From positions 1-24,135 of IMG/VR virus record IMGVR_UViG_3300025030_001185: 24,135 nt of DNA. One strand, written 5' to 3'. This DNA is from a virus. Below are positions 6,804 through 22,099 of the stretch, one piece after another. The notes beneath the pieces are model-generated. The model made no database searches. It saw only the letters and a program-made list of their open reading frames with translations, and was not told the origin of the DNA. The stretch's first letter is position 1; each line of letters starts with the position of its first letter. Position numbers and translations under genes: made by a program.

Positions 6804-6864
6804 CTCCTCATATTATTTTATTAATCTATCAATCTATAAAACTCCAACCAAAAACCATCTCCTC
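6804..6864 (-). promoter_or_regulatory. two Shine-Dalgarno copies (B) facing the leader loop
   Basis: GAGGAG occurs at 6859-6864 and again at 6804-6809; the second is the ribosome binding site of the endonuclease. Both are exact complements of CUCCUC in the loop of leader B (6898-6905). The upstream copy has no ATG at a usable distance. Confidence 0.6.
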
Positions 6865-6882
6865 ACCACAAACAAAAATAAA

Positions 6883-6949
6883 ATAGGGAAGGGCAGAGAG
6901 GAGTATCTACCCATTTTTAGTTAGATTGCAAGCCTAACGTATCCCAAAA
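6883..6949 (-). ncRNA. structured leader RNA, copy B (three-way junction)
   Basis: On the - strand GGGA (6942-6945) can pair with UCCC (6886-6889). Inside are hairpin 2, GUUAG/CUAAC type (6920-6938), and hairpin 3, GGGUAGA (6906-6912) with UCUGCCC (6891-6897), 7 bp including one G-U. The loop of hairpin 3 is UACUCCUC. Its CUCCUC is complementary to two downstream GAGGAG sites. The closing stem is weaker here than in copies A and D. The copy shares GGGAUA at the 5' side and CUUCCCUAUU at the 3' side with the other leaders. Confidence 0.6.
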
Positions 6950-6978
6950 TCCATAAAAAACTATAACTTTATAAAATA

Positions 6979-7047
6979 AAAAAGAATCTACAGTTTTGTA
7001 GATTCTTTAAAATGTTCAAAATCAAAAAATCAATTATATTTAGTTAT
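6979..7047. repeat. dispersed repeat, copy 1 (terminator plus 3' flank)
   Basis: This segment, containing the AAGAATCTACA terminator and a flank with ATCAAAAAATCAATTATATT, is nearly the same as 19360-19422. Both copies sit just 5' of a structured leader RNA on the - strand. Confidence 0.75.
6981..7008 (-). terminator. terminator of the P63C gene
   Basis: A 12-bp perfect stem, AAAGAATCTACA type (6981-6992 with 6997-7008), loop of 4, then TTTTTTATTTT on the - strand. It lies within a stretch of about 65 bp that recurs near 19360-19422. Confidence 0.85.
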
Positions 7048-7062
7048 TAATGAGTTATCTAA

Positions 7063-7995
7063 CTAATTATCTTTCACATCCAAATCACCATTAATATTTA
7101 CATCACTAATTACATTTTCATCCTTATTTTCGTTATACCATCTATCAAACATAATTTCAAATTGACTCCAGTTATCACTTAGTTTCATAATAGTAATAAC
7201 TGATGCTAAATGTTTATCTAAATGAGGGATACCAATATTATCAGTTAAGAATTGATGAAATCTATATTTTCTATAAAATTTATTCTGATTAGATTTATTT
7301 TTAACTAATGGATTCTTCTTTCTTAATTCATCTAAAACTGTTTCAGGTAATACATCATAAACATATTTATTAGTATATTGACCAACTAAAGGAGATTTTG
7401 CATTTCCTTTGTATTGCCATCCTTTAAGTCTAAACATCTCTTTATAAAATTCTAAAGGAAATCTTCTAGTCCAAGGTAAAAATTCTTCTCTTACATATAA
7501 AGATAATAATTTTTGTAATTCGTCACGTTCTCTTTCTTCTTGAAATCCTGTAGCTTCATCAATCAATGCTATAATACCTATTTTAGATAAAGAACGAACT
7601 AGAATTTCACTTACTAATGCTAACGATTCTTGATTTTGCGTTAGAGTATTATCTTGTCTTGCTTGTAAAAATATATCACAAATAGTTGGAAGTATAGTCG
7701 CTTTATAGCCATCTAAAATTCTTTTATCTTTTGCAATATATTTTATAGAGAAATTCTCACCAGTGCTTAAAGCCTTATCTATATAGGGTTTGAGGTTATT
7801 TGCAGTCATAAAAGTAGGCAAATTCTCACCAGTCATAAAATCACTATTTAAAATTCCTTTTGACCTATCAAATGCTTTAAACATTGCTCTACTAGATAAA
7901 ATTCTAGTTCCATCTTCTAAAACTGCACAAGTTAATTCTTTTTCTCCAATAGTTATCTTACCAAAATGTGTTGCTTTTAAAATCTTTTCTTCCAT
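7063..7995 (-). CDS. P63C domain protein (moron)
   Basis: 310-residue protein that I assign to the P63C-domain phage family. The conserved C-terminal part is recognisable: ERDELQKLLSLYVREEFLPW, then RRFPLEFYKEMFRLKGWQY, LVGQYTNKYVYDVLPETVLD and RYRFHQFLTDNIGIPHLDKH-type sequence up to about residue 290. The biochemical role of the family is not established, so I give none. It lies between two tail genes but is not part of their operon. A near-consensus promoter stands directly upstream and a strong terminator directly downstream, the arrangement of a moron gene that can be expressed from a prophage. The start ATG at 7995 follows AAAGGAGG at a somewhat long distance of about 13 bases. Confidence 0.8.
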   Translation of the reverse strand: MEEKILKATHFGKITIGEKELTCAVLEDGTRILSSRAMFKAFDRSKGILNSDFMTGENLPTFMTANNLKPYIDKALSTGENFSIKYIAKDKRILDGYKATILPTICDIFLQARQDNTLTQNQESLALVSEILVRSLSKIGIIALIDEATGFQEERERDELQKLLSLYVREEFLPWTRRFPLEFYKEMFRLKGWQYKGNAKSPLVGQYTNKYVYDVLPETVLDELRKKNPLVKNKSNQNKFYRKYRFHQFLTDNIGIPHLDKHLASVITIMKLSDNWSQFEIMFDRWYNENKDENVISDVNINGDLDVKDN

Positions 7996-8039
7996 GTTTA
8001 AATTAAATCCTCCTTTAATTATATTATTATTTTAACATT

Positions 8040-8101
8040 ATAATACAACAAATAAAGGAGGAAGTCAATACATTATTTAAAAATAATTATATTTATATTC
8101 T
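8040..8101 (-). promoter_or_regulatory. sigma-70 promoter of the P63C gene, with AT-rich upstream box
   Basis: On the - strand TTGACT (8063-8068) and TATTAT (8040-8045) are 17 bases apart. An AT-rich box at 8080-8101 (AATATAAATATAATTATTTT) lies about 11 bases upstream of -35, where an UP element would be. The same box with the same spacing stands at the promoter near 19508-19569, and the bases before -10 (TGTTG) are also the same. Confidence 0.8.
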
Positions 8102-8117
8102 ATCAAACTACAATTCA

Positions 8118-8937: not shown

Positions 8938-10368
8938 TTAATTATCTGTAATGTAATTATCCAAAATCTCTTCAATCCTATCAAAATCATAATACCAAAT
9001 TTCTAACAAATTTATATTATTGTTTTTAGCATATTCTCTTTTTCTACGATCATGTTCTTGTTGTTTAAGAAAATCTTTCATTGTTTTATGAAATACTGGT
9101 ATAAATTTTTCATGTTGAATTCCTTGATATTCTATAAGTAAATTAAATCTAGAAATATAGAAATCGTAAGATAATAATCCATTACCCAATCCTAACAATC
9201 CATTATATTTCATCTGAGGAATAAAATAATTTTTATTATATTTATCTTTATCAATTAATTGTTCAAATTCTTCTTGTGATATTTTAATAAAATTTATATT
9301 ATTTAAATAATTAATAATTCTTCTTTCACCTTTAGATATGTTACATTCTGGACATCCTGTGCCATTAACTTTATCTGTTCTATGTGCGATAGAAGTAAAC
9401 CATGAATAACCACATTCTTTGCAAATCCACCAAACATGATCATTACTATATGGACAATATTCTTCTGGTTTATTTTTATTTTTATCATAATCCCACTCAA
9501 TACAAAGTTTAGGATTAACAACTAATAAATTATAATCTTCACTTGGTAATTTACCAGAGCAATATGGACACCCAGTATTATTTGAATTTCTTATTGCTAT
9601 ACTTGCTTTCCATTTATGATTGTTATTATTTTTGCATTTCCAATAAACATATTCAATAGCATTTGGACAATACTCTTCAGGAATTTTATCATTTTTATCA
9701 TAATCCCATTCCTTGCATAATTCAGGATTAATAATAAGTAAATTATAATCTTCTGATGGTAAATTTCCAAAGCAATAAGGACAACCAGTATTTTTATTTG
9801 ATCTATTATTAACACTTGTATGCCATTCGTGTTTAGGATTATTAGAACATTGCCACCAAACTTCTTTATTGTTGCCACAAGTTATATCATAAGGAGTTAA
9901 ATCACCATTCTTAGTAGGATGCCATTCTTTTGCTAATTCAGGATTCTTTGTTACTAAACAATTAGATAAACCTACTTTAAATCCTCTACAATAAGAACAA
10001 CCACAATTATCAAAAATATCTCTCCATTTTGCTTCAAATTCTTCACCACATTCTTCTTTTAAACATTCCCATTTTAATATTTTATCATTGCCATTATATT
10101 CTTTACTAACCAATTTAAATGACTTGTTGTTTAATTCACACCAAAGTTTTATATTTTGAATTGTATAAGGATTAGATTTATGAAATTTATCTGGTATATT
10201 TCCAATTTTTAAACTACTAAAAACAACATTATAAAAATAACCTTTGTTATCTTTAAAAATAATTTTTGATCTAGAATTAATATATTTATCACTAATTAAT
10301 TTATATCCTAAATTTTCAACACATTCTTTAACTTCAATATATGTAAATTTCTTTGTGCTTTTACCCAA
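8938..10368 (-). CDS. homing endonuclease: zinc-ribbon repeats plus PD-(D/E)XK-like nuclease
   Basis: 476-residue protein. Residues of about 90-345 hold one CxxC unit and three repeats of the 'probable zinc-ribbon' type (DUF4379-like). Each repeat reads N-P-E-L-x-x-E-W-[HD], then W-W-x-C-x-x-x-x-x-H-x-W, then GCPYC or GCPEC, with ED-YNLL linkers. The C-terminal domain of about 130 residues has YDFYISRFNLLIEYQGIQHE followed by QEHDRRKREYA and LLEIWYYD, a D...E-x-Q-G...H...D..K layout typical of PD-(D/E)XK/EDxHD-type phage endonucleases. The start is TTG at 10368, nine bases after AGGAG. It sits between the tape measure and distal tail genes without disrupting either, as free-standing homing endonucleases do. 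Target and activity are inferred. Confidence 0.8.
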   Translation of the reverse strand: MGKSTKKFTYIEVKECVENLGYKLISDKYINSRSKIIFKDNKGYFYNVVFSSLKIGNIPDKFHKSNPYTIQNIKLWCELNNKSFKLVSKEYNGNDKILKWECLKEECGEEFEAKWRDIFDNCGCSYCRGFKVGLSNCLVTKNPELAKEWHPTKNGDLTPYDITCGNNKEVWWQCSNNPKHEWHTSVNNRSNKNTGCPYCFGNLPSEDYNLLIINPELCKEWDYDKNDKIPEEYCPNAIEYVYWKCKNNNNHKWKASIAIRNSNNTGCPYCSGKLPSEDYNLLVVNPKLCIEWDYDKNKNKPEEYCPYSNDHVWWICKECGYSWFTSIAHRTDKVNGTGCPECNISKGERRIINYLNNINFIKISQEEFEQLIDKDKYNKNYFIPQMKYNGLLGLGNGLLSYDFYISRFNLLIEYQGIQHEKFIPVFHKTMKDFLKQQEHDRRKREYAKNNNINLLEIWYYDFDRIEEILDNYITDN

Positions 10369-10376
10369 AATATCAC

Positions 10377-10417
10377 ACTCCTAATATGATTTATAAATTA
10401 AAATACTTATACTCCTA
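10377..10417 (-). promoter_or_regulatory. two identical Shine-Dalgarno copies (C) facing the leader loop
   Basis: TAGGAGT occurs at 10411-10417 and again at 10377-10383, where it is the ribosome binding site of the TTG-started endonuclease. Both are exact 7-base complements of the loop ACUCCUA of leader C (10444-10450). Confidence 0.65.
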
Positions 10418-10430
10418 AATAAAAATAAAA

Positions 10431-10489
10431 TAGGGAAGAAGTATAGGAGTTACTTCTTATCAGTAGGGTAATTACTCCTACCTATCCCA
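10431..10489 (-). ncRNA. structured leader RNA, copy C (three-way junction)
   Basis: GGGA (10485-10488) faces UCCC (10433-10436). Hairpin 2 is GUAGG/CCUAC (10463-10481). A linker UGAUAA leads to hairpin 3, a perfect 6-bp stem GAAGUA (10451-10456) with UACUUC (10438-10443) and loop ACUCCUA. The loop equals the complement of both downstream TAGGAGT sites. The closing stem beyond GGGA/UCCC is weak, as in copy B. Its 3' edge CUUCCCUAUUUUAUUUUU is shared almost exactly with copy B. Confidence 0.65.
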
Positions 10490-17325: not shown

Positions 17326-18789
17326 TTATACAATTTTCTTATCATTAATTTTTACAAATGAAAAAATCTCATCTATACTTTTATTCTTTAAATCTTTAGG
17401 AAATATAAATACACATTGATCTATTAACCCTGCTTTGTATAAATCTTTAATTTTTTTCTTTGCTTTACGTTTATAATCATTTACAAATTGTGTACTACTA
17501 TTTCTCCAAATTCCAAAATATTCAACATAAAATATTTTATTATCTATAAATAAAATCCAATCACACCTTCTATTATCATTTTCTTTGTTTAATATATCAA
17601 TATAATAATATTCTTTATGATGTTTTATAAAATTGTCTATAAAATAATTAGATATATCTTTTTCAGGTATAGATTTGCATTTTCTTCCTAATTTATCATA
17701 ACATATAGTACCTGATTTAAAAACTTTATCATATTTTATATTTAACCTTTTACATATTTGTTCTATAGAACCTATTCTATCTTTATAGCAAGGATAAGAT
17801 GCTATTGTTTTATCATTGTCTATTTCGTATGCAAATGGGACTCTTCCTAATTTTAAATATAAAAAATAAAAATCATTTAGTAATTCAAAGTCATTTTTTA
17901 ACGTAAATTCATGTCCAGATAATTCCCACCCCAATGATTTAATTAATTGATTATAACTCATATTAAAACTACTCATATATTGATATAAAGAAGAAACACC
18001 ATATTCAGGTTTAATTTCTATAGATAAAGGAGTTCTACCTAATTTATATTTTAATTGTTCTAACTCAAATAATAACTGTTCTTTTGTTTTTTGATATTTA
18101 TTAGCTTCTTCTAAATATTTCATACAAATTTCATTATATTTTAATTTTATTTGATTTTCTAACACTCGTCTATTAAATAAATAATTTTCTTTTGCATATT
18201 TATCATATTCATCTACTGTTGGACATTTACCTAATTTAATATATAATTTAATTAATCCTTCAATACTTAACTTAGTTCTTTCTTCATTTGATATAATTAA
18301 GTTTTTATGTATAAGCCCACTTTCATATAAAGCATTCTTAAAATTGCCAAATATTCCTGCAAACCAATCTTTATTTACATTTGTGTAATTATCAACGTCT
18401 GTTGTAGTAGGTATTTTATTTAAAGTTTTACTTAAATCTTGTAAAAATTTTATACCATCTTCTTTTGTTTTTAAATTATGTAATTTTCTATTTATATCTA
18501 ATTCACATTCAACAAGTAAATCATTATATGTGCTCCAATATTTATAAATAGAAGTTATAGAATATTTTATTTCATAATTAAAAGGACTTCTATTATGTAT
18601 TTGATAAAATTCTTTAACATTATTCATTATATCTTCTTTTGTATAATTTGTATTTATATTAACTTCCAGTCCTGCTTCTACTAATGCTTTATTCCAACTT
18701 CCAAAATATTTAGTATAAATTTTAGGACTAGGAAAATTATTATCTTTTTCAAATTCAACAAATAATGGAGTTTTATTATATGTATTATA
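17326..18789 (-). pseudogene. homing endonuclease, 3' part, after an in-frame stop
   Basis: Continuation, in the same frame, of the gene whose 5' part ends at the TAA at 18790-18792. The first ATG is at 18627 with only a weak AGAAGA upstream. The part before it (YNTYNKTPLFVEFEKDNN onward) is clearly coding and completes a repeat started before the stop. It contains about six divergent repeats of some 50-60 residues of the homing-endonuclease-associated repeat type (pattern G-R-x-P, then Y/F-G-S-W-N-x-A-L-x-x-x-G). The C-terminal nuclease domain has RRCDWILFIDNKIFYVEYFG followed by Y-K-R-K-A-K-K-K, a D...E-x-E-Y-F-G...K layout of PD-(D/E)XK-like phage nucleases. Without readthrough or suppression, the catalytic domain is cut off from the 5' repeats; re-initiation at 18627 is possible but weakly supported. 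Confidence 0.75.
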
Positions 18790-19185
18790 TTATCTTTTTA
18801 ATTCACTTAATAAAAACTCTTTAGAGAATGTTCTACTACCGTATTCTGCTTCTTTGCTTCTATATAACCCCATACTATTAGCTTTAACAGCAATAGCACT
18901 CCATTTTCTTTTTATCATTAATTTATCTATTATTTCTTCTTTGTTACCATTTTCATATAAATCTAATAATACTTGCTCGTCACATTTATACCAATCTTTA
19001 TCACCTAGAATATCTAAATAATTTAAAAAATTATTCCATGTTTCCCAATTAGTTTTATATGCACTTTCACTTGGGAAACCTAAACTACCTTTCATATCCT
19101 TACCTCTAGGGTACCTACCATTTTCCTTAAAAAATCTCCAAAATTCATCAATTAAAAATTCTTTTGTGTATCTTTCATTACCCAA
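18790..19185 (-). pseudogene. homing endonuclease, 5' part, ending at a premature stop
   Basis: N-terminal part of the repeat-rich endonuclease. The ATG at 19194 directly abuts AAAGGAG, so the TTG at 19185 (nine bases after the site) is the more likely start and begins GNERYTKEFLIDEFWRFF. The first associated repeat runs to about residue 60. An unrelated helical section with KRKWSAIAVKANSMGLYRS, perhaps helix-turn-helix, follows. A second repeat starts (FSKEFLLSELKR) and stops at TAA. Replacing TAA by one base (for example TAT, Tyr) would restore a single frame of about 620 residues, since the next 54 codons before ATG 18627 are open. A nonsense mutation is the simplest explanation. It lies directly behind structured leader RNA copy A. 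Confidence 0.75.
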
Positions 19186-19192
19186 ATAAACC

Positions 19193-19249
19193 ATCTCCTT
19201 TAATTATTAATTTTTATAATTGTTATATTTACAATTAATTATCTCCTTA
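19193..19249 (-). promoter_or_regulatory. two Shine-Dalgarno copies (A) facing the leader loop
   Basis: TAAGGAGATA (19240-19249) and AAGGAGAT (19193-19200, the ribosome binding site) are complementary over 10 and 8 bases to the loop side of leader A (19294-19303). The upstream copy is followed by ATAATTAATTGTAA, at best a start-stop, so it is unlikely to serve a gene. Confidence 0.65.
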
Positions 19250-19278: not shown

Positions 19279-19349
19279 AATAGGGAAGGGTTATAAGGAG
19301 ATATAAAAACCCTTTTGTCATTAGTTGATCAGACTAATCTATCCCTATT
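19279..19349 (-). ncRNA. structured leader RNA, copy A (three-way junction)
   Basis: Best-formed copy. The closing stem is 8 bp, AAUAGGGA (19342-19349) with UCCCUAUU (19279-19286). Hairpin 2 is AUUAGU/ACUAAU. Hairpin 3 is AGGGUU with AACCCU (19308-19313 and 19287-19292), possibly extended by UAUA/UAUA so that UCUCCU is the terminal loop. The loop side reads UAUCUCCUUA, complementary to a TAAGGAGATA 45 bases downstream and to the ribosome binding site. Junction bases AUA and GACAA match those in the other copies. Confidence 0.7.
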
Positions 19350-19359
19350 AATACAAAAT

Positions 19360-19422
19360 AAAAAGAATCTACATTTTTATAGATTCTTTAAAATATTACA
19401 AATCAAAAAATCAATTATATTT
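19360..19422. repeat. dispersed repeat, copy 2 (terminator plus 3' flank)
   Basis: Matches 6979-7047 over the hairpin and the flanking AAATCAAAAAATCAATTATA stretch with few differences. It links the intergenic region here with the end of the P63C unit. Confidence 0.75.
19362..19389 (-). terminator. terminator of an emptied transcription unit
   Basis: A 10-bp perfect stem, AAAGAATCTA type (19362-19371 with 19380-19389), followed by TTTTTATTTTG. It is nearly the same as the P63C terminator, including its flank, and follows a strong promoter at 19508-19536 with no intact gene between. Confidence 0.8.
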
Positions 19423-19424
19423 AA

Positions 19425-19490
19425 TTGTTATATTGCTGTATTGCTAATTCATTAATTAACTTGTTAACAAATAAATAAGCATATAATTAT
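19425..19490 (-). pseudogene. remnant of a lost gene (C-terminal tail only)
   Basis: Between the promoter at 19508-19536 and the terminator at 19362-19389, one - strand frame reads AYLFVNKLINELAIQQYNN and then stops. It looks like the tail of a helical protein, but a stop codon precedes it and there is no start. I do not recognise the family. The call rests on amino-acid composition and on the promoter-terminator frame around it, so it is weak. Confidence 0.35.
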
Positions 19491-19507
19491 ATTTCAATTT
19501 TATTGTT

Positions 19508-19569
19508 ATTATACAACATATAAAATGGTATGTCAAGATATAAAGTGAAAATAATTATATTTATAATCT
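19508..19569 (-). promoter_or_regulatory. consensus sigma-70 promoter with AT-rich upstream box, no intact gene
   Basis: TTGACA (19531-19536) and TATAAT (19508-19513) are 17 bases apart on the - strand. An AT-rich box (19548-19569) matches the one upstream of the P63C promoter in sequence and spacing. Transcription would run into the terminator at 19362-19389 and, if that is read through, into leader A and the endonuclease. Confidence 0.85.
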
Positions 19570-19748
19570 AAGTTATGCATTTATACAATTATATCCAATT
19601 ATATCTAACTATTATATTTATAATCTATAAAAACAACTTAAAAATCCACAAAATCCATCAAATCTCCAAATTTACGATTTTACAAACCCTTATAAATAGT
19701 ACGTTTACAGCACCTCAAAAATTGAAAAATCATAACCAAATGAGGATT
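19570..19748. other. non-coding stretch downstream of the recombinase; possible attP
   Basis: No convincing gene. It contains several ATTATAT-type repeats (19551-19626) and, near 19665-19715, repeated TTTAC elements (TTTACGA, TTTACAA, GTTTACA) around ACAAACCCTTATAAATAGT. Attachment sites often lie beside the recombinase gene and such repeats could be arm or core sites, but nothing here proves it. Confidence 0.25.
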
Positions 19749-20883: not shown

Positions 20884-21177
20884 TTAATCAATATTTCTAA
20901 TACACACATAAATCTTACCATCCTTATAACTACTTACAATATTATTTCTTTCCACAATAATCTTATCAATTATATTATCATCTTCACCTAATTCTCTAGT
21001 AATAACCTGATCAACAATACTTTTTGTAAAATTCTGAACATCAAATTTCTCCATACAATCAAATTTAAGAAAAATTATAATTGGTCTATCCCAATCTATA
21101 TTTAATTCATCTTTAGGAGTAACTTGATTACTTGGGAATTTATTAATCCAATTATTATATGTATTAGTTTTTACTGT
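20884..21177 (-). pseudogene. RusA-like endonuclease fragment without start
   Basis: An open frame of 97 codons directly behind the stop codon of the GIY-YIG gene, in the same frame, with no ATG, GTG or TTG near its beginning. It reads KTNTYNNWINKFPSNQ, then IIIFLKFDCMEKFDVQNFTK, VDQVITRELGEDDNIIDKII and SYKDGKIYVCIRNID. The D-x-x-N-x-x-K-x-x-x-D and E-D-D-x-I-I spacing resembles RusA-type Holliday-junction resolvases, where those acidic residues bind the metal. Family membership is from memory of the pattern and is tentative. The N-terminal end is missing, presumably lost when the endonuclease unit arrived. The internal ATG would skip conserved residues. Confidence 0.5.
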
Positions 21178-22005: not shown

Positions 22006-22033
22006 CCACCTTCCGTATTTTTATTTACCTTAA
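22006..22033 (-). promoter_or_regulatory. two Shine-Dalgarno-like copies (D) facing the leader loop
   Basis: TTAAGG (22028-22033) and the ribosome binding site GGAAGGTGG (22006-22014) can pair with GCCUUAA/GCCUU of the leader D loop side, with G-U at the end. This is the weakest case, but the target differs from the AGGAG of the other three and the loop differs accordingly. Confidence 0.5.
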
Positions 22034-22044
22034 AAAGATATTAC

Positions 22045-22099
22045 AAGCAGGAAGATGTTAAGGCTTACATCTTATCGGATGTACATTCCTATCCTGCTT
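22045..22099 (-). ncRNA. structured leader RNA, copy D (three-way junction)
   Basis: The closing stem is 8 bp, AAGCAGGA (22092-22099) with UCCUGCUU (22045-22052). Hairpin 2 is short (GGA/UCC around 22077-22089). After a GAUA linker comes hairpin 3, a perfect 6-bp stem AGAUGU (22067-22072) with ACAUCU (22053-22058), loop AAGCCUUA. The Rha reading frame runs into the element and its UAA lies in this loop, so a terminating ribosome would disturb the fold. Confidence 0.6.

Follow-up and report, generated by a model that had tools for sequence, protein, structure and literature searches.

A three-way-junction leader of phage homing endonuclease genes with a loop matching two competing sites and a palindromic loop: a candidate RNA switch

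The window (the whole stretch of DNA analysed, 24,135 bases) is a virus record, the tail genes of which show ~30–34% identity to Bacillus SPbeta-like phages. Four genes of homing-endonuclease type, each of a different kind, lie on its minus strand, and all of them are preceded by a leader (copies A–D). From 5' to 3' the leader consists of helix P1 ((nnn)GGGA/UCCC(nnn)), a UAG link, helix P2, a link of UGAUAA type, helix P3 with its loop L3, a single U and the 3' strand of P1. These are followed by an AU-rich linker, a first complement of L3 (copy1), a spacer, a second complement (copy2) and the start codon. The features of the four copies are listed below, with bit scores from the covariance model of the leader.

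10485–10488, minus: copy C, 5' strand of P1 (GGGA), pairing with UCCC at 10433–10436
10462–10482, minus: copy C, P2 hairpin GGUAGG..CCUACU with the 9-nt loop AG-UAAUUA-C, palindromic hexamer at 10469–10474
10438–10456, minus: copy C, P3 hairpin GAAGUA..UACUUC, loop L3 ACUCCUA at 10444–10450
10411–10417, minus: copy C, copy1 UAGGAGU, complement of L3 apart from the ribosome site
10377–10383, minus: copy C, copy2 UAGGAGU, complement of L3 in the Shine-Dalgarno (SD) region of the ORF
8938–10368, minus: copy C, ORF with TTG start, DUF4379 treble-clef zinc fingers and (by eye) a C-terminal PD-(D/E)XK-like motif
19279–19349, minus: copy A, structured core, 41.0 bits
19342–19349/19279–19286 and 19308–19312/19288–19292, minus: copy A, P1 and P3
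19326–19331, minus: copy A, P2 loop hexamer UGAUCA
19294–19303, minus: copy A, L3 UAUCUCCUUA
19240–19249, minus: copy A, copy1 UAAGGAGAUA, 10 nt complementary to L3
19193–19200, minus: copy A, copy2 AAGGAGAU, ribosome site, 8 nt; likely start TTG at 19183–19185
18790–19194, minus: copy A, ORF as listed, HNH_repeat protein
6882–6949, minus: copy B, structured core, 24.8 bits
6942–6945/6886–6889, 6934–6938/6920–6924 and 6906–6912/6891–6897, minus: copy B, P1, P2 and P3
6926–6931, minus: copy B, P2 loop hexamer UUGCAA
6898–6904, minus: copy B, L3 with CUCCUC within
6859–6864, minus: copy B, copy1 GAGGAG, complement of L3
6804–6809, minus: copy B, copy2 GAGGAG (SD), complement of L3
4713–6791, minus: copy B, ORF, NUMOD1 / I-HmuI NUMOD-like homing endonuclease
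22045–22099, minus: copy D, structured core, 28.5 bits
22092–22099/22045–22052 and 22067–22071/22054–22058, minus: copy D, P1 and P3
22080–22085, minus: copy D, P2 loop hexamer UGUACA
22058–22066, minus: copy D, region containing L3, GCCUUAA at 22058–22064
22028–22033, minus: copy D, copy1 UUAAGG, complement of L3
22009–22012, minus: copy D, copy2 AAGG inside the ribosome site AAGGUGG, complement of L3
21178–21996, minus: copy D, ORF, GIY-YIG (SegE-like) + NUMOD3 homing endonuclease

The pairings of loop and target described for all four copies in an earlier note on this DNA are located in the window at the lengths given there. The structured core of copy C extends to ~10492, so that the span 10377–10456 delimited in that note takes in the element incompletely. 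In copy A an in-frame stop divides the HNH_repeat endonuclease gene (18628–18793, minus strand), the same frame resuming as ORF 17326–18627; the leader is intact, but the gene that follows it has probably decayed.

Intrinsic terminator-like hairpins are located just 5' of leaders B, C and D (7008–6981, 10528–10504 and 22147–22119, minus strand) and a similar hairpin precedes the leader of copy A, the cassettes being placed directly behind terminators. Upstream of copy A, the stretches 19355–19449 and 19469–19570 are 81% and 75% identical to the P63C-gene flanks 6974–7068 and 8001–8102, respectively. There is no P63C ORF between these flank-like stretches, and a perfect TTGACA-17-TATAAT promoter is found at 19536–19508. 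Following the copy D GIY-YIG gene, the frame at 20884–21140 (minus strand) resembles a RusA-like resolvase in its C-terminal portion and has no start; it looks as if the cassette landed in the resolvase gene. A tyrosine recombinase (phage integrase; 20855–19749, minus strand) adjoins the endonuclease cassettes in the tail/late gene region.

A total of 69 distinct leaders from ~45 IMG/VR phage records was assembled by pattern scans of viral contigs (one with a fixed P2 loop and two with the P2 loop left free), protein-guided fetching and a covariance model; six of the leaders were added from a pattern scan. Every leader has a three-way junction of P1, P2 and P3 with nearly invariant joining strands (GAUAG and UGAYAAG). 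In an alignment of 13 sequences, both partners vary in 11 of the 17 pairs of the fold. The corresponding covariation score is 0.46 vs 0.17 (0.165) for shuffled and 0.05–0.14 for slid controls, a measure that leans towards the fold since the copies of this first alignment had been picked for it and their loops padded by hand. The covariance model recovers copies A–D of the window, as well as most of the ~65 other leaders, with E-values down to 1e-20, and it also matched leaders in loci fetched by protein similarity alone (e.g. L005, L007, L022, L035). The folding energy of the window copies, pseudoknots left aside, is modestly better than that of shuffled sequences (z from -1.2 to -3.9); for copy D, the predicted structure does not include P2. 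Divergent leaders missed by the model can be discerned by eye upstream of the DUF4379 match in L015 and L018 and at ~2150–2258 in L034. Each of them has two copies matching L3, and their palindromes are UAGCUA and UGAUCA, so the family is wider than counted.

A search of Rfam 15 (riboswitches, ribozymes, group I introns, HEARO, preQ1 and others) with a limit of E = 5 gives no match in the window, and with a limit of E = 1 the leaders of ten further loci are likewise without a match; a known RNA family was rejected on this basis. There is no convincing blastn match to the leader among 50,697 records of cultured phages and 72,556 plasmid records. The covariance model finds no match in ~1,500 bacterial genomes either, a result that shows little because strict filters let few candidates be scored; 14 matches from a scan of genome contigs were rejected as chance-like. 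No description of such a leader was found in the open-access literature. The existence of an RNA family is near certain, and a new phage RNA family is the best reading of these comparisons. Structured RNAs beside nuclease genes are known from HEARO / IscB omega RNA and other endonuclease-associated RNAs. The leader resembles them in adjoining a nuclease gene but differs in having no Rfam match and in that its variable strand matches its own message instead of an outside target; besides, the nucleases concerned are not IscB/TnpB.

The genes behind the leader are varied. Single scans of 64 downstream ORFs gave, by our own count, GIY-YIG, HNH, NUMOD, HNH_repeat or PD-(D/E)XK domains in 30, DUF4379 without those domains in 16, DUF7487 in 5, a zinc ribbon only in 2 and no Pfam match in 11. 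The leader is therefore common to unrelated families of mobile endonucleases. It is not essential to them, since many DUF4379 relatives of the copy C ORF have no recognisable leader. Two leader-bearing GIY-YIG genes (L075:3921–5939 and L081:1102–2355) have in-frame TAG where the domain continues, and with TAG read as a residue both give full GIY-YIG domains; these two phages probably recode TAG.

In all 69 leaders L3 is complementary to two separate sites, copy1 after P1 and copy2 before the start codon. By median spacing, copy1 lies 11 nt past the P1 region, copy2 13 nt past copy1, and the end of copy2 6 nt before ATG. The two best sites in the leader's own downstream region sum to 692 paired nt over the 53 distinct L3, vs a mean of 464 (sd 11, max 507) in 10,000 trials with downstream regions reassigned at random; for the second site alone the values are 326 vs 215 (sd 5.4, max 236). 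The proposal of the earlier note that loop and ribosome site change together thus holds in more homologues and extends to both copies across the 69 leaders. Its further point, that this is no generic anti-SD loop, is confirmed by the permutation and by the 23 of 53 distinct L3 devoid of the anti-SD core (CTCC, TCCT, CCTC), which still match their own copies (13.0 nt vs 8.1 for foreign leaders). L3 is diverse and not an invariant CUCCU, the outcome which that note had named as refuting its proposal; among the other loops are AUGUCAAC, AUGCUAAAC, AAUUGACC, AAGCGUUUA and AACCACUC, each with two matching copies. Five leaders illustrate the partners of L3:

L040: L3 AUGCUAAAC, copies GUUUAGCAU and GUUUAGCA(AUG)
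L071: L3 AUGUCAAC, GUUGACA twice
L075: L3 AACCACUC, GAGUGGUU and GAGUGGU
L082: L3 AAGCGUUUA, UAAACGCU twice
L033: copy1 with CCUAACCUU and copy2 with UUUUACCU, different halves of L3

In L055, as in L033, copy1 and copy2 match different halves of L3; copy1 is hence no mere repeat of copy2 and is itself selected to match L3. A strict rule that copy1 pairs with the 3' side of L3 was rejected, this being a tendency only (23 vs 9, 17 equal). The mean predicted duplex energies are practically the same (-8.86 kcal/mol for L3-copy1 and -8.83 kcal/mol for L3-copy2), copy1 being preferred in 27 leaders, copy2 in 18 and neither in 19. A Bacteroidetes-type TAnnTTTG box stands before P1 in 7 of 68 leaders vs 1.1% of control windows, and several of the leaders with core-less L3 have it upstream. 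Hosts using this box are probably independent of SD pairing; copy2 still abuts the start codon there. Promoter-like boxes, where seen, are placed directly before P1 (the enrichment of TATAAT is modest), so the predicted transcripts would include the whole structure.

The second feature of the leader is the loop of P2. A perfect Watson-Crick hexamer palindrome is present in 23 of 30 distinct P2 loops vs 3.4 expected from shuffles of the same loops. A palindromic tetramer is found in 29 of the 30 (13 expected; a few loops retain the tetramer only), and the last loop is self-complementary with G.U pairs. Prior to this test five loops that the hairpin finder had put in the wrong place were reset manually, and L077 (UGAACA, no palindrome), the downstream part of which is unclear, was left out. 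In L3, taken as a control, a hexamer palindrome occurs in 1 of 53 loops. There are 11 different hexamers (UAAUUA, UUGCAA, UGAUCA, UGUACA, UCAUGA, UUAUAA, UAGCUA, UUCGAA, AUCGAU, GUCGAC and AUUAAU, the last overlapping UAAUUA in one loop), and the four window copies have four different ones. The palindrome is swapped between sister leaders that are near-identical in the rest of their sequence: UUAUAA in L007 and UCAUGA in L023, UAAUUA and UCAUGA in two sister leaders of a single phage (L080), UGUACA in window copy D and UUGCAA in L005, as well as the pairs L035/L022 and L126/L131. Within-phage orthogonality of the palindromes was rejected, as hexamers are shared in 8 of 42 cases vs 9.0 after shuffling (P 0.45, 18 records). 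The hexamer is off-centre in the loop, commonly 2+6+1, and the arms of P2 covary as an RNA helix (G.U 13, A.C 0; the hairpin finder permitted G.U and not A.C).

An intramolecular partner for the hexamer was rejected, the match being no better in the own leader (3.9 nt) than in foreign leaders (3.75 nt). The two central bases of the loop are unable to pair within one hairpin, and the preserved complementarity is therefore best explained by pairing of two molecules. A six-base palindrome in an apical loop with flanking purines is the feature of the HIV-1 DIS and palindromic kissing-loop RNA dimers (PMC7357161). The P2 loop, often 2+6+1 with flanking purines, is alike in this respect, a likeness that is no test of membership, and its self-complementarity is under selection as judged by its excess and by the switching between sister leaders. 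It differs from DIS in belonging to an mRNA leader of a DNA phage, in having 11 different hexamers, often of A-U pairs only, and in that the dimer is here a prediction. The commonest hexamer, UAAUUA, consists of A-U pairs only and is a weak kissing loop unless other contacts support it. This lowers our estimate, but two leader RNAs probably self-associate via the P2 loop.

Taken as a whole, the leader would be a cis-acting RNA switch which sets how often the endonuclease is translated. The RNA would fold into the three-way junction, leaving L3 with two competing partners. Pairing of L3 with copy1 would give a local pseudoknot with the ribosome site free (presumably the ON state), while its pairing with copy2 in the ribosome-binding region would block initiation (presumably OFF). 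As both pairings use L3, they are mutually exclusive. The palindromes would allow two leaders to pair loop to loop, and the input would most likely be self-recognition, so that translation would be tied to the amount of leader RNA in the cell. We infer pairing in vivo, the block of the ribosome and RNA dimerisation, as well as translational control and the assignment of ON, from the leaders' sequences. It is quite likely that the exclusive L3 pairings control initiation of translation; the complete scheme, with its probable coupling to RNA self-recognition, we regard as probable. The earlier note had proposed a pseudoknot that hides the ribosome site and silences the gene until something opens it. 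A specific, co-varying pairing of loop and site, ending at a median of 6 nt before ATG, is indeed found in 69 leaders, but it is one of two exclusive pairings. Copy1 is nearer, is transcribed first, binds equally well and leaves the ribosome site uncovered, so the default state could equally be open.

The main rival of this switch is a ligand-binding riboswitch in which the dimer contact is incidental. Translational riboswitches possess SD, anti-SD and anti-anti-SD strands, i.e. two exclusive pairings of the strand opposing the ribosome site, and the exclusive pairing of L3 with copy1 or copy2 around the ribosome site has the same layout at the level of sequence. P1, P2 and P3 together with the near-invariant GAUAG and UGAYAAG joining strands would then form a pocket for a metabolite, the L3-copy1 state would be stabilised by the ligand, L3-copy2 would be the repressed state and the palindrome an incidental or stabilising dimer contact. 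It is hard to reconcile with this that the controlled genes are unrelated mobile endonucleases with no common metabolism, that there are few invariant bases for a pocket and that the strongest selected feature of the loop is self-complementarity and not a fixed sequence. The lack of an Rfam match and of a metabolic gene, and the free drift of the paired strand, also set the leader apart from the known riboswitches. We consider a metabolite riboswitch unlikely, though a small-molecule or protein ligand could be the input instead of dimerisation. Still less probable is that single matches of 6–7 nt, which are cheap in AU-rich sequence, only simulate the pairing because anti-SD loops fit SD-like sequence anywhere; the permutation, the subset without the SD core and the E-values of the model already refute this, and its probability is practically negligible.

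Should L3 merely block the ribosome site, copy1 would be a by-product, e.g. a duplicated ribosome site. Hiding of this site is established for I-TevI, I-TevII, I-TevIII, segB and mobE, homing endonucleases of T4/Aeh1 whose ribosome site lies inside simple hairpins (PMC2988022). The leaders share with them a phage homing endonuclease, a 5' structure at the ribosome site and (as predicted) translation control, and in 69 of 69 sequences a part of the structure is complementary to that site. However, the T4/Aeh1 hairpins, which are relieved by a late promoter within the structure, are gene-specific, whereas here one conserved junction with a competing decoy and a palindromic loop serves unrelated families, and the partner of the ribosome site is the loop of another hairpin, P3, and not the opposite strand of a stem. 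Moreover, copy1 is kept in 69 of 69 leaders, even where it is not SD, covaries as well as copy2 and often fits a different half of L3 (L033, L055). The common L3 and the equal predicted energies argue for a two-state switch rather than such a plain block, which we find improbable. Finally, the P2 palindrome may act as duplex DNA, either bound by a dimeric protein or used when the cassette recombines, RNA pairing being confined to L3. Palindromic hexamers are typical of protein sites and the window cassettes do come after terminators, but 11 hexamer types stand before the same gene families, and the off-centre position between arms that covary as RNA makes this explanation very unlikely.

If the two-state switch is true, the leader would be a portable control module placed before GIY-YIG, HNH, PD-(D/E)XK, DUF4379 and DUF7487 genes, in phages whose hosts are probably distant; a number of these phages appear to use recoded TAG. 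Should the palindrome mediate dimerisation, the leader would provide a rare example from nature of an mRNA whose dimerisation is linked to its translation. The furthest reading, to which we give somewhat less than an even chance, is that the mRNA recognises its own copies via the fast-changing palindrome and toggles L3 between decoy and ribosome site; a selfish gene would in this way gauge the dose of its own transcript by a module common to unrelated homing endonuclease families. As L3 is free to drift in step with its partners, the two-copy layout would constitute a ready-made retargetable switch.
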